The notes beneath the pieces are model-generated. The model saw nothing but the letters and a program-made list of their open reading frames with translations, was not told where the DNA came from and ran no database searches. The position numbers were made by a program, and so were the translations under genes. Below are positions 95-59,124 of a stretch of 64,000 nt of DNA, piece by piece. Every line of letters starts with the position of its first letter. The stretch's first letter is position 1. This stretch comes from Alphaproteobacteria bacterium (GTDB lineage: Bacteria; Pseudomonadota; Alphaproteobacteria; Micavibrionales; Micavibrionaceae): assembly GCA_020443075.1 (NCBI GenBank), contig JAGRIU010000060.1, forward strand, positions 1-64,000, read 5' to 3'.

Positions 95-1593
95 GCTATG
101 ACGAGATTTTAACCGCGTGCGGATTGGATGTATCGAGCCTGCAAAACGGTGCGCGTGCAGTGCATACGCCCATCGACGGATCACTCATCGCCCGCGTGGA
201 TGATAATACGGAAGATGATGTTCGCGCCGCTATCGCAAAATCGCAGGCTGCCTTTGAGGTCTGGCGCAAAACGCCGGCCCCCGTGCGCGGAGAATTTGTG
301 CGTATTCTCGGCGAGGAATTGCGTGCCGCCAAAGCGGAGCTGGGCCGCCTTGTGACGCTGGAATGCGGCAAGATTTATCAAGAAGGCTTAGGCGAAGTGC
401 AGGAAATGGTTGATATCTGCGTCTTTGCGGCGGGCTTGTCGCGCCAGCTTGACGGCAAAACTATAACGTCTGAACGCCCCGGCCATCACATGCGCGAAAC
501 ATGGCAGCCTATGGGTCCGTGCGGGGTGATTAGCGCCTTTAATTTTCCCGTGGCGGTCTGGTCATGGAATGCAGCACTAGCGCTGATCTGCGGTGATCCG
601 GTGATCTGGAAGCCATCGGAAAAAACGCCGCTGACCGCGCTGGCTTGTCAGGTCATTTTCGACCGCGCGCTGAAGAAGTTTGGCGAGGCGCCTGAGGGCC
701 TTAATCAGCTCATTCTCGGCGATGGCGCCATCGGCAATATCATGGTCGAAAGCAAAGATGTGCCGATCATCAGCGCCACAGGCAGCACCGCCATGGGCCG
801 CATCGTCGGCCAGAAAGTCGCTGCACGTTTCGGGCGCAGCATTCTGGAGCTCGGTGGCAATAACGCGATGATTGTTGCACCGTCGGCTGATCTGGATATG
901 GCCGTGCGCGCGATCCTGTTTTCCGCTGTCGGCACAGCCGGGCAGCGCTGCACAACGCTGCGCCGTTTGATCGTTCACGAAGATGTTTATGAACCGCTTT
1001 TGACCAGCTTAAAAACCGCGTATGGCTCGATTAAAATCGGCGACCCTCTGAACGAGGCACATCTGATCGGCCCACTCATCGATGAACAAGCTTTTGTGCA
1101 ATATGAAAGCGCATTAAAAGCGGCAAAAGAGCAGGGCGGCGCTGTGCATGGCGGCGGACGCGCCTTGCAAAACGAATATCCGCAAGGCCGCTACGCCCGT
1201 CCGGCGATTGTCGAAATGCCCAAGCAAACCGATGTCATGCGCCATGAAACGTTTGCACCCATTCTCTACGCGCTGAAATATAAAACACTGGACGAAGCCA
1301 TCGCTGCGCAAAACGATGTGCCGCAAGGCTTGTCTTCGTCCATCTTTACGACCGACGTGCGCGAGGCCGAAACATTCCTCTCCGCAGTGGGCTCGGATTG
1401 CGGCATCGCCAATGTGAATATCGGCACCAGCGGCGCGGAAATCGGCGGCGCGTTCGGCGGCGAAAAAGAAACCGGCGGCGGACGCGAGTCTGGATCGGAT
1501 GCGTGGAAAGGCTATATGCGCCGCATGACCTCGACGGTGAATTACTCTTCTGAACTCCCGCTCGCCCAAGACATTAAATTCGGCGAGGATTAG
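91..1593 (+). CDS. amaB: Alpha-aminoadipic semialdehyde dehydrogenase, ALDH7 family
   Basis: A 500-residue NAD-dependent aldehyde dehydrogenase of the ALDH7 (antiquitin-like) subgroup. It would oxidise 2-aminoadipate 6-semialdehyde to 2-aminoadipate in cytosolic lysine catabolism. Visible motifs are FNFPVAVWSWN with the oxyanion Asn near residue 151, the cofactor Lys in WKPSEKT (about 174), the GSTAMG cofactor loop (231-236), general-base Glu253 in LELGGNN, and the nucleophile Cys287 in GQRCTT. Length is normal for the family. ATG 91 overlaps the upstream stop (ATGA). The 3' end overlaps the convergent malonyltransferase-like gene by 4 bp. Activity on piperideine-6-carboxylate or other semialdehydes cannot be excluded. 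Confidence 0.9.
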   Translation: MSYDEILTACGLDVSSLQNGARAVHTPIDGSLIARVDDNTEDDVRAAIAKSQAAFEVWRKTPAPVRGEFVRILGEELRAAKAELGRLVTLECGKIYQEGLGEVQEMVDICVFAAGLSRQLDGKTITSERPGHHMRETWQPMGPCGVISAFNFPVAVWSWNAALALICGDPVIWKPSEKTPLTALACQVIFDRALKKFGEAPEGLNQLILGDGAIGNIMVESKDVPIISATGSTAMGRIVGQKVAARFGRSILELGGNNAMIVAPSADLDMAVRAILFSAVGTAGQRCTTLRRLIVHEDVYEPLLTSLKTAYGSIKIGDPLNEAHLIGPLIDEQAFVQYESALKAAKEQGGAVHGGGRALQNEYPQGRYARPAIVEMPKQTDVMRHETFAPILYALKYKTLDEAIAAQNDVPQGLSSSIFTTDVREAETFLSAVGSDCGIANVNIGTSGAEIGGAFGGEKETGGGRESGSDAWKGYMRRMTSTVNYSSELPLAQDIKFGED

Positions 1594-2612
1594 ATCACCA
1601 AAGCCCTTTGCTCATCAATCCCCATCGACAGGATCAAGGGATCATCTTTTTGCTGCGCTGTAAAATCGTCTTTTGTGCACAGGCCGCGCCAGCCGATCTC
1701 GATTAAACTTTGCGCCACCGCCCCGCCTAACGTATTGCCGGGACCCAGAATAATAATCTTATCCGGCGCAAATTCTTTGACGCCCACCTGAACGCTGCGT
1801 GTGAAGTTGTAAGGCGTGCATACTTGCGTGCCCAGCGTATACGCACGCAATTGCGCCGGATCACTAGAGTAGGGGCTCCAGATATGCCCGCGCCCGTCGA
1901 TCAGGGAAAGGACGGGCTGCGTAAACAAATCCGCTCCCAGAGCCGCCTGACCTTTGGCGGCAATCGGCGCCATCATCTCTGTGTGAAACGCGCCGTGATA
2001 TTTTAAACGCAGAGGAAAACGGCTCTGCGCCGGTTCAAGGCGTTTCATTAGCATATCAAGCGCGGCGCCCTCTCCGGCAAACACAATCATCCCGCCCAGC
2101 TCAATCGACAGATAAAGCCCGTCAATCTCGCTGGTCAGCGCCATTAACGCCTCACGCTGCCCCGCTATGGGCTGCCAGTTTTCATCAACAAACGGATATA
2201 GCACTTGCCCGCCCGGCGCATTGTGGTGCATGAGCGTGCCCATCGTGTTGACAATCTGCGCTGCATGCTCCGCGCTTGCCGCTCCGCCGCACGCCAGCGA
2301 TATGTACCAGCCCATCGAATTGCCGCACACCGCCGCCACGTCGTAACGCTCTCGGTTTATGGAGAGAAAATCTGAGTAAGCGCAAGCATAAATCAGCGCC
2401 GAGGCATTCTCGCCGCTCATGTGCACCGCTGTCTCATACGCATCGCGTCCGTCCAGTTCGCTGATCGGGATTTGTCCTTGCGCATCGCGCATCGCATCAA
2501 TTGCGCCGATGAACGCCTTTTGATCGCCGTGATGGCGGCGAAAATACCCCAGCTCATCCTTGTTATACGTTCCGCGCCCGGGGCAAATCACCAGCGCCGT
2601 TTGTTTAGTCAT
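1590..2612 (-). CDS. ACP S-malonyltransferase-like acyltransferase
   Basis: A 340-residue protein with the FabD-type fold signatures. There is an N-terminal PGRGTY loop in place of PGQGSQ. The nucleophile elbow is GNSMGW with Ser99 (GHSLG in classical FabD), and GAFHTEMM carries the catalytic His210. Family members move malonyl groups from CoA to acyl carrier protein. Here the gene overlaps the end of the fused E1 dehydrogenase by 8 bp and no fatty-acid genes are nearby, so it is probably dedicated to the acyl product of that dehydrogenase or to a related CoA thioester. The divergent GNSMG elbow points to a sub-branch rather than housekeeping FabD. Substrate is unknown. Confidence 0.7.
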   Translation of the reverse strand: MTKQTALVICPGRGTYNKDELGYFRRHHGDQKAFIGAIDAMRDAQGQIPISELDGRDAYETAVHMSGENASALIYACAYSDFLSINRERYDVAAVCGNSMGWYISLACGGAASAEHAAQIVNTMGTLMHHNAPGGQVLYPFVDENWQPIAGQREALMALTSEIDGLYLSIELGGMIVFAGEGAALDMLMKRLEPAQSRFPLRLKYHGAFHTEMMAPIAAKGQAALGADLFTQPVLSLIDGRGHIWSPYSSDPAQLRAYTLGTQVCTPYNFTRSVQVGVKEFAPDKIIILGPGNTLGGAVAQSLIEIGWRGLCTKDDFTAQQKDDPLILSMGIDEQRALVI

Positions 2613-4809
2613 GACGGCCCTCCATTAAATTCATGGCGGCTTCGATAATGCTCTCCTTACTCGGCAGGGTCACCGCCGAAGCGCGCCCCAGCGGGATAAA
2701 ACAATCACTCGCGCTCAGGCGCACCATTTTCGGTGCAGGGGCGGCGCATTCATGGATCAAAGTCATGAGCTCTTCGCTCGGTGATCCGCTCTTGCGGCAT
2801 TCATCGACAATCAAAACACGCTGGCACGGCTTGATCGCTTCCAGAATCGCCTCGGCAGGCAGCGGCGTCAGCCAGCGCAGATCAATAACGCGCAGCTTTA
2901 CACCTTGGTCTTCCAAAACTTTGGCCGCCTGACGCGAAAGATAATACTCGTTGCCGTAGGTCAAAATGCACAGGTCTTTGCCGCTGCCGTACTGTCCCAC
3001 TTCACCAAACGGAATAGCGTTCTGAGCCTCATATTTAAAGGCCCATTCTCCATCGCCGCTTTGGTGCAGATCGCGGGTCATATACAGCGCAATCGGTTCC
3101 AAGAAAACGACGACCCGCTGTTCCTCGCGTGCCAGCCGCACGCACTCGCGCAGGAGCGCCGGAGCCTCGCCCGCGTTCGATGGACACGCCACAATAAGCC
3201 CCGGAATGTCGCGCAAAACGCCCAGAGCATTGTCGTTGTGAAAATGCCCTCCAAAGCCTTTTTGATACCCCAGCCCCGCAATCCGCACCACCATCGGGTT
3301 CGCGTATTGCCCTTGGCTGAAAAAGCTTAGCGTTGCGGCCTCCCCGCGCAGTTGATCCTCGGCGTTATGCAGATAGGCGAGAAACTGGATTTCAGGAATC
3401 GTCAGGATGTCATTATGCGCCATCCCGATCCCCAGCCCTAAAATGCTTTGTTCATCCAGCAGCGTATTAATCACCCGCGCACCGCCAAAACGCGCATGCA
3501 GGTTTTTCGTCACCGTATAGACCCCGCCCTTGGGGCCAATGTCTTCACCCGCCAGCACGATATTATCCTGTTCCAGCATCAAATCATGCAAAGCCCAGTT
3601 CAGCGTTCGCGCCATGTGTTGCGGCTGATCCATCAACGCCCACTCATCCCCGAACAGTTTTTCGCGCTGCTTTTGTGATGGTTTTGCGGGCGGCGGTATG
3701 TCGCGCTTCGGAGGGATCAGGCTTTCGGCCACTTCATCTGCGTTCGAAAGTTTAGGCCGTTTAATGACCTCTTCCGCGGCGCGCGCGCATCGCTCCCCGA
3801 TCCCGTTATAAAGCTCCAAAATCTGTTCAGGACTTAAAATGCTTTGCTGAATAAGCTTCGCCGCCGAGTGCAAAAGCGGATCATGCGCCTCCATCCGCTC
3901 GATCTCTTGCTTGCTCAGATAGCTGTTTTGCACGTCCGGCCCCGCATGCCCGAACAGGCGCACGCATTTCATATGCAGGAATACAGGCTTGCGCTGCGTC
4001 CGTGCATAGGTTTCCGCTTCACAGGCGGCTTTATAAGTGTCGAAAAAATCCAGCCCGTTACAGGCGATATATTTGATGGACGGACGCGCCTTCATCGTCG
4101 CCTCGACCCACCCTTGAGGCGTCATCGTCGAAATGCCGAGCCCGTTATCCTCGCAGAGAAACACCAAAGGCATTTCGAGATTCTGATACGCCGTCCAGCA
4201 CGCGGTATTAATCGCCCCTTGCGCCGTCGAATGGTTTAACGATGCATCACCAAAGCTGCATAGAATGACCGCATGTTCCGGTAAAACGCCCTCGCGCTTC
4301 AGGCGCTTGTTTTGCCCGATACTGAACGCAGCCCCGACCGCCTTGGGCAGGTGCGAGGCAATCGTCGAGGTTTGCGGCGGAATAAAAAGCGCTTTGCTGC
4401 CCAGAACTTTATGCCGCCCGCCCGAAATCGGGTCTTCGCTGGAGGCCACAAAGCTCAGCAGCATATCCCACAGCGGCGTTTGCCCCGCCAACATCTTCGA
4501 GCGCTGGATAAAAAACGCCCCGCTGCGGTAATGCAGAAAAGCCATATCATCGACGTTAAAGGCAGCCGCAATCGCGGCATTGCCTTCGTGGCCGGAAGAG
4601 CCGATTGTATAAAACCCTTCGCCGCGCGCCTGCAATTTGCGGGAAATATTATCGAGCTGGCGGCTTAGCACCTGACTTTCGAAAATCTCGACCGCCTGCG
4701 CCGCGCTCAAGCCTGCATCCGCCAAAGACAAAGCGCTCGCCGCCGGTAAATTCTGCGCGGGAACCCGCCTTAAAAAATTCTGGTGAACAATCTCTGCACG
4801 ATCCTGCAT
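2605..4809 (-). CDS. Fused alpha/beta E1 component of a 2-oxoacid dehydrogenase
   Basis: 734 residues that join both E1 subunits in one chain. The alpha-like half (about 1-390) has the thiamine-diphosphate motif from GDAS (187-190) to EDNGLG (about 220-225). The beta-like half (about 395-734) starts with [12 protein letters not shown] and contains EDIGPKGGV, a pyrimidine-binding domain and a transketolase C-terminal domain. Such enzymes decarboxylate branched-chain 2-oxoacids, pyruvate or 2-oxoadipate and acylate the lipoyl group of an E2. No E2 or E3 lies in the window. The setting, between aminoadipate-semialdehyde dehydrogenase and glutaryl-CoA dehydrogenase, makes 2-oxoadipate an attractive substrate, but this is inference. 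It overlaps the acyltransferase gene by 8 bp and is divergent from gcdH. Confidence 0.85.
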
Positions 4810-35600: not shown

Positions 35601-36446
35601 TTAGATAAATAAACTTCTCACCAGCGCCAACCCGATATCCCCGCAAGTTGAACGGATTTCCACAATGTCATTGCGAGGAGCCTCGGACAGAGTTCGGGGC
35701 GACGCGGCAATCCAGCGATCTGGATTGCTTCGCTCACTTTCGCTCGCTCGCAATGACGATTTGTATTGCACCGTCTCCAAATGCTTCTTTCCCAGCCCGC
35801 GGTAATGCATGCGTGCAGTCAGTTCTTGTCCGACATAACAGCCCTTTTTGTAATCAACGCCGTTCCAGCGATCCATATGCCCTTCATCCATGGTCGATGC
35901 CCCGACAACTAAATCCCGGCTGCCATCTGGAATGCCGAGTATAATCCGCCGCTTATCCCACTCTTCAAAAAGACGTTCCTCCAAATCCGGCTTGTCAAAG
36001 CTGCGCCGCCCCAAATCCGGATGGCGGGGATCAATAAAAGATGTAGGGATATTGGGATGAGGGGATGAGGAGAGCTTCCCGTCATCCCGTAATCCCTTCA
36101 TCGTCTCATCAAAAATTGCGTAGACGCGATTGTCTTCCTCAACCGAAATCTGCACATCCGCGCGCAGGCGGTACATATTTAGTCGCCGATACAAATCCTG
36201 CGCCCGTTCGCCACCTTCGCAGTCCAACAAGGTAAACCCGTCACCCTCCAGCACAAAAAAATCATGCAGGAATTTACCCTGAGGGTTCAAAAGACACGCA
36301 TAAAGGGGCCGGACAGGGGAGAGCTTGCCCATGTCATTGGTGATTAAGCCTTGCAAAAAAGCATGCCGATCCGGCCCTTCCAGGTGAAGGAGCCCGCGAT
36401 TTTTAAGGGTTACGAAGAAAGGCTTTTCTGGCATAGTGTCGCTCAT
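35601..36446 (-). CDS. ygfZ: YgfZ/GcvT-like folate-binding protein with two in-frame repeat insertions
   Basis: 281 residues from MSDTMPEKPF; AAGGATG is well placed before ATG 36446. YgfZ proteins bind tetrahydrofolate and help maintain Fe-S enzymes and tRNA modification. The signature KGCYVGQELTARMHYRG is present, with the Cys. Two segments do not belong to the family. One is about residues 120-137 (LSSSPHPNIP, repeat at 36045-36098). The other is about 30 residues after ETVQYK (SSLRASESERSNPDRWIAAS plus PRTLSEAPRND, repeat at 35667-35757). After the second insert the C-terminal barrel is short. The start overlaps the divergent glycosyltransferase start within CATG. Confidence 0.88.
   Translation of the reverse strand: MSDTMPEKPFFVTLKNRGLLHLEGPDRHAFLQGLITNDMGKLSPVRPLYACLLNPQGKFLHDFFVLEGDGFTLLDCEGGERAQDLYRRLNMYRLRADVQISVEEDNRVYAIFDETMKGLRDDGKLSSSPHPNIPTSFIDPRHPDLGRRSFDKPDLEERLFEEWDKRRIILGIPDGSRDLVVGASTMDEGHMDRWNGVDYKKGCYVGQELTARMHYRGLGKKHLETVQYKSSLRASESERSNPDRWIAASPRTLSEAPRNDIVEIRSTCGDIGLALVRSLFI
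35667..35757. repeat. Nested palindromic element inside ygfZ
   Basis: Outer arms GTCATTGCGAG (35667-35677) and CTCGCAATGAC (35747-35757) are perfect inverted repeats. An inner pair, GCAATCCAG (35707-35715) and CTGGATTGC (35720-35728), closes a 4-nt loop. The design matches the widespread GTCATTGCGAGCG.. dispersed palindromes. It is read through in frame by ygfZ and contributes about 30 residues. Confidence 0.9.
36045..36098. repeat. GATGAGGGGATGA palindromic element inside ygfZ
   Basis: GATGAGGGGATGAGG (36056-36070) and CCCGTCATCCC (36078-36088) recur in a second element inside coaBC at 56886-56918. The two sides are inverted repeats of GGGATGA / TCATCCC. In ygfZ it encodes KLSSSPHPNIP-like residues in a loop before the DPRHPDLG segment. 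Confidence 0.75.
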
Positions 36447-37437
36447 GAACATCCTTTTTATCACATCCAGCCGCATTGGCGATGCGGTTTTATCAACTGG
36501 TTTGCTAAATCATATTCAAACGCGCTGGCCCGCGGCCAAAGTTACGATTGCCTGCGGCACGCTGGCCGTATCGCTCTTTGACGGCTATCCGCTGCGCGCA
36601 CGCACCATCGCGATGAAAAAGGAAAAATATAACAAGCACTGGATCAAGCTCTGGCGGCAAGTCATCGCTACGCGCTGGGATATGGTGATTGATTTGCGCG
36701 ATTCGGCGGTCTCGCGGCTGGTTTGGGCCGGGCAGCGCTATATCTTTAGCCCGCGCCTGAATAAGGACAAAAAACTGCATAAGGCCGAACAAAATGCCGC
36801 TGTTATGGGGCTGGAAAATGTACCGGACCCAAAACTCTGGTTCTCGGCAGCGCAAACAGAAAAGGCCGCGCATTTAATCCCGGACGGCGCGCCCGTTTTA
36901 GGCGTTGGTCCGACGGCCAACTGGATCGGTAAAACATGGCCGGCCGAACGCTTTATAGAGACTGTAAGCTGGCTCACCGCACCGGATGGGTATATGGCGG
37001 GGGCCCGCGTAGCTGTTTTTGGCGCGCCAGGCGAAGAGGAAGAGGCACACAAAGTCCTGCAAAGCATCCCCGAAGAGCGCAGGCTCGATATCATCGCCAA
37101 AACCGATCCCGGCACGGCGGCCGCGACGATTGCCCGCTGTGATTTTTATATCGGCAACGATTCCGGCCTGATGCACTGCGCCGCTGCTGCAGGCGTGCCG
37201 ACGCTGGGGCTGTTCGGGCCGAGCTATGACAGTGTTTACCGTCCGTGGGGCACGCATGCACATTTTGTCCGCACGCCCGAAAGTTTTGACGAGCTTATCG
37301 ATTTCGAAGGTTATGACCCAAAAACGTTAACGAAAACGCTTATGGGCTCTTTAACGCTGGAAGCCGTCCAATCCGCACTGGATGAAATGTTTTTAGAGCA
37401 AAAAAACAAGGCGCCCAAAACAAGCGCCTCGCTCTAA
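36445..37437 (+). CDS. Glycosyltransferase family 9 (heptosyltransferase-like)
   Basis: 330 residues from MNILFITSSRIGDAVLST, the typical GT9 beginning that binds the nucleotide-sugar region. The C-terminal half has the GT9 signature: GVGPTANWIGKTWPAERF, then DFYIGNDSGLMHCAAAAGVPTLGLFGPS. Such enzymes transfer ADP-heptose or related sugars to lipopolysaccharide core at the inner membrane. The exact acceptor is unknown. A GTG three codons upstream (36436) is an alternative start. The ATG overlaps the divergent ygfZ start codon. Confidence 0.88.
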   Translation: MNILFITSSRIGDAVLSTGLLNHIQTRWPAAKVTIACGTLAVSLFDGYPLRARTIAMKKEKYNKHWIKLWRQVIATRWDMVIDLRDSAVSRLVWAGQRYIFSPRLNKDKKLHKAEQNAAVMGLENVPDPKLWFSAAQTEKAAHLIPDGAPVLGVGPTANWIGKTWPAERFIETVSWLTAPDGYMAGARVAVFGAPGEEEEAHKVLQSIPEERRLDIIAKTDPGTAAATIARCDFYIGNDSGLMHCAAAAGVPTLGLFGPSYDSVYRPWGTHAHFVRTPESFDELIDFEGYDPKTLTKTLMGSLTLEAVQSALDEMFLEQKNKAPKTSASL

Positions 37438-55744: not shown

Positions 55745-56203
55745 TTAGTCCTTCCCCGTCGAACCAAAGCCGCCGTCGCCGCGTGCGGTTTCATCAAGGT
55801 CTTTCACCACTTCCCACGCCACATGTTCAAAGCGCTCGACGACCATCTGCGCGATACGCATACCGCGTTCGATGGTAAAAGGCTCTTTGCCGTGATTGAT
55901 CAGAATAACTTTGATTTCACCGCGGTAATCCGCATCAATCGTCCCGGGCGTATTGAGCACCGTCACTCCGTGCTTGATGGCAAGGCCCGAACGCGGACGG
56001 ATTTGCGCTTCATAGCCTTCGGGCAGGGCAATCGCCAGCCCCGTCGGCACCAAAGCGCGCTCGCCAGCCCCGAGTTCAATGGCTTCTTCCAACGCCGCCG
56101 AAAGGTCCATCCCCGCCGATTGCGCCGTCGCATAGCTCGGCAGGTTCAGTCCCACAGCATGTTCTAGCGGCATCAGTTTGACTTTGGTTTCATTCAGCGG
56201 CAT
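55745..56203 (-). CDS. dut: Deoxyuridine 5'-triphosphate nucleotidohydrolase
   Basis: 152 residues, the trimeric dUTPase. It hydrolyses dUTP to dUMP and keeps uracil out of DNA. Family motifs are in order: [42 protein letters not shown] and GDGGFGSTG. The start overlaps the coaBC end by 14 bp, so they are coupled. Confidence 0.97.
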
Positions 56204-57470
56204 CGTTCATCTGTCCTTTTATAGCCTTAAAATAATCGGCAATGGCTTGTGTCAATCTCTCACCCACGGCGCTTTTGCTCATGGCGCCCCAATCATCGGT
56301 TGTCTTTGCCGATATAAAATAGACATGATTCTCGTCCTCGCCAAACACCTTTTTATCGTCCCCGCCGACCTGATTGGCTAAAATCCAGTCACAGCCCTTA
56401 CGAGCCAGTTTGCCCTTGGCGTGCTCCAGAACACCCTGCGTTTCCGCGGCAAATCCGGCAACCAGAGCAGGTCGCTGTGCATGATGGGATAGGATATACA
56501 AAATATCTGGGTTCTCTTTCAAAGAAAGCTGCGGAATTGTGCCTTCGGCGTCTTTTTTAATTTTTTGTTCTGCCGGAGCACTTGCGCGCCAATCACTGAC
56601 CGCCGCCGCGCACACGGCAATATCGCAGGGCAGAGCAGCTTCACAGGCCGCTAACATCTCCTGCGCGGTTTCAACGCGGATTGTCCGAACGCCGAACGGG
56701 TCGGGCAGGGCGGTCGGACCGCTCACCAGCGTAACGTCCGCTCCGAAATCTGCCAGAGCCTGTGCAATCGCATGCCCTTGCTTACCCGAAGAACGGTTGC
56801 CGATAAAACGCACAGGATCAAGCGACTCATAAGTTGGCCCGCTGGTCACAAGGGCGCGAAGGCTTTTCAGATGCGGGGATGATGTGATGAGGGGATGAGG
56901 CGAATCTCCCGTCATCCCTTCATCCAATAATCCCTTAATCCGATCAAAGATCGTTCCCGGCTCGCTCATCCGTCCGGGCCCATGTTCGCCGCACGCCATA
57001 TCGCCTTCTTCGGGGCCTGCAAACTTTATCCCTCTGTTTTTTAAGGAGTTTACATTGGTGCAAGTCGCGTCATTGACCCACATAGCATGGTTCATCGCCG
57101 GTGCAATCAGGATCGGTTTATTCGCGGCAAGCAACATCGTGCTGGCTAGATCCTGCGCTAGCCCGTGCGCCATTTGCGCGATAATATTAGCGCTCGCCGG
57201 AGCCACAACAATCAAATCGGCCTCCCGCGAGAGGCGAATATGTCCCATCTCTGTCTCGTCCTTAAGCGACCAGAGATCCGTATAAACAGGCTCTTCACAC
57301 AGGGCCGAAACCGAAAGAGGCGTGACGAAATGCGACCCGCCTTCGGTGAGAATACAGCGCACCTTCGCCCCGTCTTTCTTCAGTAGGCGGATCAATTCCA
57401 GCGATTTATAAGCGGCAATACCGCCGCTGATCACCAGCAGGATCGAAAGGTCTTTCAGGTTTTGTGTCAT
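56190..57470 (-). CDS. coaBC: Phosphopantothenoylcysteine synthetase/decarboxylase with repeat in linker
   Basis: 426 residues from [20 protein letters not shown]. The N-terminal CoaC flavoprotein domain (about 1-185) has the [15 protein letters not shown] start, PAMNHAMW and [16 protein letters not shown]. The C-terminal CoaB domain (about 215-426) has the GNRSSGKQG nucleotide site. Both activities build coenzyme A. About 20 extra residues ([20 protein letters not shown]) lie in the linker and coincide with a GATGAGGGGATGA palindrome like the one in ygfZ. An open extension to 57524 has no family match. Confidence 0.94.
56886..56924. repeat. GATGAGGGGATGA palindromic element inside coaBC
   Basis: GATGAGGGGATGA (56886-56898) and TCATCCCTTCATC (56912-56924) form a 13-bp inverted repeat with one mismatch. 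15 bases plus a further 11 (CCCGTCATCCC) are shared with the ygfZ element at 36056-36088. The gene reads through it in a different codon frame from ygfZ. Confidence 0.8.
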
Positions 57471-57492
57471 AGCAAGATCATTATAATGAAAA

Positions 57493-57516
57493 AGCCCCGC
57501 CGATAAAAGCGGGGCC
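57493..57516 (-). terminator. Terminator of the Ala-rich protein gene
   Basis: On the minus strand GGCCCCGC and GCGGGGCT pair around an 8-nt loop (plus 57509-57516 and 57493-57500) and are followed by a U run (GCTTTTT). Clear intrinsic terminator between the Ala-rich gene and coaBC. Confidence 0.85.
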
Positions 57517-57548
57517 TTTTGCAAATTCTGTATTGAAAGGGCTTACGA

Positions 57549-58232: not shown

Positions 58233-59021
58233 TCAAGTTTTCAATCCGGAATGAATAGCAACAATCCCCGCCGATAAATTCGTATAACCCGCCTGCGCAA
58301 AACCGGCCTCGCGCATCCGCGCCGCCAAAGCCTCTTGCCGCGGCATTTTTCGAATGCTCTCTACCAGATATTGATAGCTGTCGCGGTCATTGGCCACGCG
58401 CGCACCAATCTCCGGGATGACACTATAAGAGTATAAATCATAAGCCTTGGCCAGCAGGCGCGGGCGCACATGCGAAAACTCCAGACAGTAAAACCGCCCG
58501 CCGGGCTTCAAAACACGCACGGCTTCGCGCAAGGCCTGATCAATCCGCGTCACGTTGCGCAGCCCGAAGGCAATTGTATAGACATCAAAGTGATTGTCGG
58601 GGAAGGGAAGATCCTCGGCATTGCCCGTCACCCAATCAAAATCATCCAGCCAGCCGCGGTCAATCGCGCGCCCCCGCCCGACCTCCAGCATATGCGGATT
58701 GATATCGCATACCACAATTTTCCCTCCCCCTTCTTGGGGGGGAGGGTTAGGGAGGGGGGGGACTCTATCTATCTTTCGACGTAGCCGAAACGCAATATCA
58801 CCCGTGCCGCCGGCCACATCCAAAAAACGCTGACCCGTGCGCGGGCGGATCATCCGCACCAGACGGTCCTTCCAGATCCGGTGCAGTCCGCCGGACATAA
58901 GGTCATTCATCAAATCGTAGCTTTCCGCCACCGAATCGAAGACCCCGCGCACCAATCCGGTTTTTTCTTCCGGACTGACGCTGCGCTCGCCAAATTGTGT
59001 GCTTTCAGGATTTTGTTTCAT
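58233..59021 (-). CDS. ubiE: Ubiquinone/menaquinone biosynthesis methyltransferase with repeat insertion
   Basis: 262 residues. SAM-dependent C-methyltransferase of ubiquinone or menaquinone synthesis. Core motifs are FLDVAGGTGDIAFRL, VVCDINPHMLEVG, DNHFDVYTIAFGLRNVT and LKPGGRFYCLEFS. Between the first two, the residues KIDRVPPLPNPPPQEGGG are not part of the family and coincide with a C/G-rich palindrome at 58722-58746. They lie in the loop before the second Rossmann strand. The start codon lies 10 bp from a palindromic element that fills the gap to murJ. Confidence 0.92.
   Translation of the reverse strand: MKQNPESTQFGERSVSPEEKTGLVRGVFDSVAESYDLMNDLMSGGLHRIWKDRLVRMIRPRTGQRFLDVAGGTGDIAFRLRRKIDRVPPLPNPPPQEGGGKIVVCDINPHMLEVGRGRAIDRGWLDDFDWVTGNAEDLPFPDNHFDVYTIAFGLRNVTRIDQALREAVRVLKPGGRFYCLEFSHVRPRLLAKAYDLYSYSVIPEIGARVANDRDSYQYLVESIRKMPRQEALAARMREAGFAQAGYTNLSAGIVAIHSGLKT
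58722..58746. repeat. CCCTCCCCC palindromic element inside ubiE
   Basis: CCCTCCCCC (58722-58730) and GGGGGAGGG (58738-58746) pair perfectly around a 7-nt loop, and a partial third copy (GGGAGGGGGGG) extends to about 58761. Read on the minus strand it gives PPLPNPPPQEGGG, a known translation of a dispersed palindrome. It lies in frame in ubiE. Confidence 0.85.
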
Positions 59022-59030
59022 AGAGCTTTT

Positions 59031-59124
59031 AAACCACAGAGATGAAGGAGTGAAAAGGAGATAAAAGAGAGTTTTAAATATTTTTCTCTTTCAACTCTGT
59101 TTTTACTCTTTAAACTCTGTGGTT
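59031..59124. repeat. Palindromic element filling the ubiE-murJ gap
   Basis: AAACCACAGAG (59031-59041) and CTCTGTGGTT (59115-59124) are inverted repeats at the ends of a 94-bp element whose interior has further GAG/CTC-rich complementary stretches. It occupies all but 9 bp of the divergent gap; the murJ ATG follows the right arm directly. Ends are shared with the dut-mutS element. Confidence 0.85.

Follow-up and report, generated by a model that had tools for sequence, protein, structure and literature searches.

The window analysed here, a stretch of 64,000 nucleotides from a Micavibrionaceae genome, contains a ygfZ/IBA57-like ORF (35601..36476, minus strand; 291 amino acids) whose reading frame runs through a strong palindrome. 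The question is whether the residues encoded by this palindrome belong to YgfZ or were brought in by a repeat that the gene has tolerated. The ORF product scored 63 bits against TIGR03317 (cut-off 49). IBA57/YgfZ structures were closest to it by both sequence and fold, with human and fungal IBA57 as the nearest solved folds, followed by a related aminomethyltransferase and E. coli YgfZ. Our reading, to which we assign a probability of about 87%, is that the palindrome is a REP/RPE-like dimer of a dispersed repeat family, which inserted after divergence from the congeners and is translated as a tolerated in-frame loop.

Anatomy and dispersal of the ygfZ element

The element, here called F1, occupies positions 35666..35758 (no strand assigned) and measures 93 bp including its tags, or 91 bp (35667-35757) without them. 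The outer arms of 11 bp, GTCATTGCGAG (35667..35677, plus strand) and CTCGCAATGAC (35747..35757, plus strand), are 100% complementary, as are the inner arms of 9 bp, GCAATCCAG (35707..35715, plus strand), which is the end of the left unit including its CCA tail, and CTGGATTGC (35720..35728, plus strand). The single-strand fold reached -50.5 kcal/mol compared with -29.9 kcal/mol for dinucleotide shuffles (z = -6.45), and none of 200 shuffles equalled it. The nested palindrome noted in the preliminary description is confirmed by these perfect arms and by a fold far better than that of the shuffles. It is, however, better named an inverted dimer of a tagged hairpin. Its architecture, TGTC-ATTGC..GCAAT-CCAG / CTGG-ATTGC..GCAAT-GACG, joins two tagged hairpin units whose tags face outward (TGTC on the left and, on the right, CGTC when that end is read on the minus strand). 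On the minus strand the element encodes SSLRASESERSNPDRWIAASPRTLSEAPRND, 31 codons without a stop between ETVQYK and IVEIRS, in agreement with the earlier statement that the gene reads through it and gains about 30 residues after ETVQYK.

A lone 11-bp arm might be a chance event in a sequence of 64 kb, and it is the recurrence in the genome that proves the element. The exact 11-mer arm had 17 matches in the 1.97-Mb assembly against two for the reversed control, mostly as an inverted pair enclosing the same inner palindrome. A search for all copies in this genome located F1 at 11 places, comprising nine dimers, in three of which one arm is mismatched, and two single arms, and only the ygfZ copy was wholly within a gene. 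Relatives carry from 0 to about 90 F1 arms per genome, with the reversed control near zero. Nine of these relatives add about 120 copies, four of them in real genes (pdhC, dxs, panC and bioA), where they sit in frame at linkers or loops. A census of 131 copies in ten genomes, picked for high copy number so that the fractions are not a lineage average, found 88 intergenic copies, 27 overlapping an ORF edge and 16 within an ORF call. Five of the 16 were accepted as internal insertions in named genes, namely ygfZ, pdhC (E2), dxs, panC and bioA. The matches inside ORFs at L196, L213, L252, L261, L284, L306, L324, L336, L337, L342 and L353 were set aside because they fell in 5′ extensions or in ORFs of doubtful status, a judgement made partly by eye.

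The preliminary description had added that outside Rickettsia such elements are usually reported between genes. This holds for F1, which is a mainly intergenic family (one of 11 places wholly internal here, and five of 131 copies in named genes across the ten genomes), but not as a general rule, since intragenic copies have already been published for several non-Rickettsia lineages. Many intergenic F1 copies lie directly after genes or in 5′ regions. One copy, L054 1879-1963 (G000:C45), lies across the 3′ terminus of a thiE-like ORF, whose final codons and stop it provides.

Relation to known repeats

Across 132 distinct F1 dimers the median length was 84 bp, and CGTC or TGTC tags were present at 259 of 264 ends. 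All units begin with ATTGC and end with GCAAT, with A-T complementarity at stem positions one and two; 250 of the 255 units have a terminal stem of 5 bp and the others one of 6 bp, the interiors are long and variable, and the tail is CCA in 224 of 255 units. According to Di Nocera et al. 2013 (PMC3733652), Neisseria dRS3 and the R. conorii elements RPE-6 and RPE-4 belong to a superfamily of CGTC-tagged REPs, one family of which, CGTC-1, was reported from Micavibrio aeruginosavorus (PMC3733652). The published unit has a stem of 8 or 9 bp, a loop of 4 or 5 nt and an unpaired tail that is mostly CCA; these REPs include intragenic dimers encoding 20-30 amino acids, as well as double insertions in one ORF, and are without a dedicated transposase (PMC3733652). 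F1 resembles them in the CGTC/TGTC tag, the A-T pairs at the first two stem positions and the CCA tail, and also in forming inverted dimers that are mainly intergenic, with some in-frame intragenic dimers and no flanking transposase gene. It differs from them in its 5-bp terminal stem, as opposed to 8-9 bp, and in its long variable interiors. Because F1 shares the tag, tail and dimer features without the 8-9-bp stem, it was kept apart from the four published CGTC families, and it may be described as a CGTC-tagged family that is RPE-like in behaviour and lies outside those four.

Bacterial MITEs can also be read in frame, and in-frame fusions have been described for Coxiella QMITE2 (PMC5896051). 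F1 would be similar to MITEs in being non-autonomous and sometimes read in frame, whereas MITEs are longer, with terminal repeats and with direct repeats at the target, none of which are shown for F1. The Rickettsia palindrome RPE-1 was reportedly found by Ogata and co-workers (in 2000 and 2002) in frame in housekeeping genes, where it adds a few dozen residues and is tolerated. F1, compared by behaviour only, is alike in placing an in-frame palindrome of a few dozen residues in a housekeeping gene, apparently with tolerance, and unlike RPE-1 in being mostly intergenic. The earlier suggestion of Rickettsia-like behaviour is borne out, in that the in-frame insert is missing in orthologues and the tags and tail match, by published description, the superfamily of RPE-4 and RPE-6.

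Inserts in YgfZ and their probable tolerance

In the orthologue alignment the F1 insert was absent from all six congeners (G001-G006) and from nearly all other relatives, indicating that its residues are non-native. This YgfZ reads LETV-QYK-[31 residues]-IV-EIRSTCGDIGLALVR, and its relatives read LETV-NINELPDK-AELRSSCGDIGLALVR. The net gain over insert-free relatives is 27 residues from 31 codons, so that about four native loop codons are gone; the insertion was not clean, with at most about four loop codons replaced. It could be argued that the residues are native to YgfZ, with a palindrome produced by chance or through a local duplication, as loop 2 varies in length among alphaproteobacteria. 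However, the sequence comes from a family with copies scattered through this genome and others, and the congeners are without it; the alignment and the dispersed copies have already refuted this argument.

The C-terminal barrel that follows is indeed short, as the preliminary description stated, and the insert had been suspected of costing part of the domain. This suspicion was rejected on the basis of the insert-free orthologues and a structure model. The C-terminus of insert-free congeners is equally short (LxTVxxNxLPxxAELRSSCGDIGLALVR), and the span from GQE to RS is 28 residues in the insert-free relatives of the subclade, versus about 40 in other alphaproteobacteria. The model, built from 55 sequences and replacing a poor earlier model from 17 sequences, had a mean pLDDT of 88.4 and kept both flanking strands (217-224 and 257-264), with the stretch between them at about 60-70. 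The F1 peptide is thus modelled as a low-confidence, floppy loop between two kept strands of an otherwise retained fold. The signature KGCYVGQE is intact, the remaining YgfZ positions are conserved, and the frame is open through two in-frame palindromic inserts.

The second insert, overlooked in the preliminary description, belongs to another family, F4, and lies in frame at 36040..36102 in the variable loop before DPRH (MKGLRDDGKLSSSPHPNIPTS). It is an inverted repeat with arms of 26 nt that are 81% complementary, forms a hairpin, and constitutes an extra loop 1 relative to the relatives. A copy 81% identical to it is found at 56869..56925 in coaBC (ORF 56190..57524, minus strand), in frame in the linker between the Pfam domains Flavoprotein (10-180) and DFP (203-387). 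It lengthens this linker and is absent in 19 of 19 aligned relatives. A third F4 copy is intergenic, at C5.

Inserts in ygfZ are not limited to this genome, as seven genomes among the 30 best family orthologues bear eight of them: two here, one in loop 2 of G033, one each in loop 1 of G051, G016, G061 and G034, and one at the C-terminus of G031. Different repeat families occupy the same two loops in different genera. The G034 insert, with a perfect 8-bp stem and a GAAA loop, is like published CGTC-1 units and represents another family than F1; the ends of the G016 loop-1 insert match and its hairpin is weak (z = -0.5). No clear palindrome was seen in the ygfZ loops of L126, L125 and L135. A comparable case is the dxs gene, where the same linker holds F1 in G117 (L277 2539-2632) and a different, partly palindromic insert in G115 (L326).

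These observations bear on two further explanations. The insert may have inactivated ygfZ, the open frame being that of a recent, undecayed pseudogene. The perfect arms would be compatible with a recent insertion, there are two inserts within one gene, and ygfZ may be dispensable given that it was undetectable in 2 of 37 or more relatives. We nevertheless regard inactivation as improbable, because the frame survives two inserts, the signature and core positions are conserved, the modelled fold appears intact, and in-frame inserts occur at the same two loops in several other genera. It is even less probable, in our estimation, that the element is kept for an mRNA hairpin action or for a selected function of its peptide. 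The hairpin is very stable, and the position of many intergenic copies just after genes or in 5′ regions is as published for REPs, but other genera have different families and peptides at the same loops, most relatives have none, and no particular sequence is kept.

Tolerance of a passive insertion is thus the reading that we prefer, and the reading phase of the inserted copies adds to it. Open frames of F1 numbered 72 in the S-L-R phase, 80 in the H-C-E phase and 61 in the V-I-A phase, and stops therefore do not dictate the phase. Eight of ten internal CGTC-like insertions were in the S-x-R phase (P ~0.004), in a small sample that pools F1 and GTCATCCC-type families, was partly chosen by eye, and was set against a null from F1 only. 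In YgfZ, E2 and DXS the F1 peptide is strongly hydrophilic. A filter on reading phase may thus act after insertion, and the in-gene copies would be those that selection spared because they sit in a loop or linker and are read in a hydrophilic phase. In ygfZ, a non-autonomous dimer most probably entered the gene after the species split from the sampled congeners. Its site is a beta-hairpin turn at the surface of the C-terminal barrel, and the reading frame was kept in a phase that has no stop. The insert would be translated as a hydrophilic, probably disordered loop in a YgfZ that presumably still works. The ygfZ inserts provide a natural map of where a conserved Fe-S protein tolerates insertions, and the combination of loop or linker site and hydrophilic phase offers a testable rule for surviving copies.

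Mobility, the F5 family and DUF559

F1 most likely is a passive, non-autonomous element, which would have moved by transposition through a trans-acting enzyme. No Y1/RAYT transposase was detected in this genome, and the copies in relatives are not flanked by F1, with a possible exception in G040. No shared gene emerged beside F1 copies, whose neighbours are only orthologous housekeeping genes. The lack of a RAYT or partner gene for F1 agrees with the published lack of a dedicated transposase for CGTC REPs. No target-site duplication was seen, the sole empty-site pair (G115 versus G060) being ambiguous; an exact-sequence scan of viral contigs gave no match, and a literature search by arm sequence returned unrelated papers only.

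A third family, F5, was recognized by a hairpin scan of the window and by its other copies in the genome. Its copy in ubiE (ORF 58236..59021, minus strand; Pfam Ubie_methyltran, 289 bits) lies in frame at 58690..58765 (VPPLPNPPPQEGGG), and this insert is absent from 19 relatives. The genome has F5 at six places, and in four of these, within ubiE, mfd, trmB and priA, it lies in frame with the gene; for mfd and trmB the evidence is the reading frame together with Pfam domains on either side. F4 and F5, with few copies each, are more often genic than F1 in this genome. In-frame palindromes of F1 were found in genes for five probably functional proteins, those of ygfZ, pdhC, dxs, panC and bioA.

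F5-type hairpins accompany genes for DUF559 (PF04480), a Vsr-like endonuclease, in the clade. Of 24 anchored loci, 23 had such hairpins within about 250 bp of the gene, and 15 had them on both sides, compared with 3 of 1568 background windows, which came from mostly coding loci; six further DUF559 loci could not be anchored. In six genomes (this one, G008, G035, G038, G041 and G056) priA contains DUF559 with its palindromes in frame. DUF559 with palindromes also apparently sits within trpF in G021, and in three other genomes it is fused to the front of a SufS-like frame. The priA of this genome was assigned by Pfam, and the names of the other DUF559-host genes are our reading of the sequence. 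In G035 the DUF559 insert is located immediately ahead of the Walker A motif of priA; at that point the priA of this genome has a bare F5 dimer. The priA locus here is L391 (G000:C45; ORF 338-3034), and the DUF559 loci of relatives are L394-L423. F1 arms were near just one of the 24 anchored DUF559 loci, and the DUF559 association therefore does not explain the loop-2 element of ygfZ.

DUF559 is thus a candidate, putative mobiliser of the F5 family and not of F1. A wider scheme, for and against which we see even odds, would have several protein-coding palindrome families in Micavibrio-like genomes, at least one of which, F5, would be the non-autonomous counterpart of a mobile element that centres on a DUF559 endonuclease gene with the same palindromes at its ends. 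The two forms would lie in frame in housekeeping genes, apparently at the same place in priA across genera, and F1 would use another enzyme. If the DUF559 association is causal, it would supply a mobilising enzyme for one class of protein-coding palindrome, which CGTC repeats have lacked. A literature search found no report of the association, which is weak evidence of novelty. Several families of apparently translated palindromes in the Rickettsia style (at least three in this genome) coexist in a Micavibrio-like lineage, and this pattern across families and genes, together with the DUF559 association, is more interesting than the single ygfZ copy. Between ubiE and the next gene, a strong A+T-rich hairpin at 59031-59120 ranks with the window's best when composition is taken into account.
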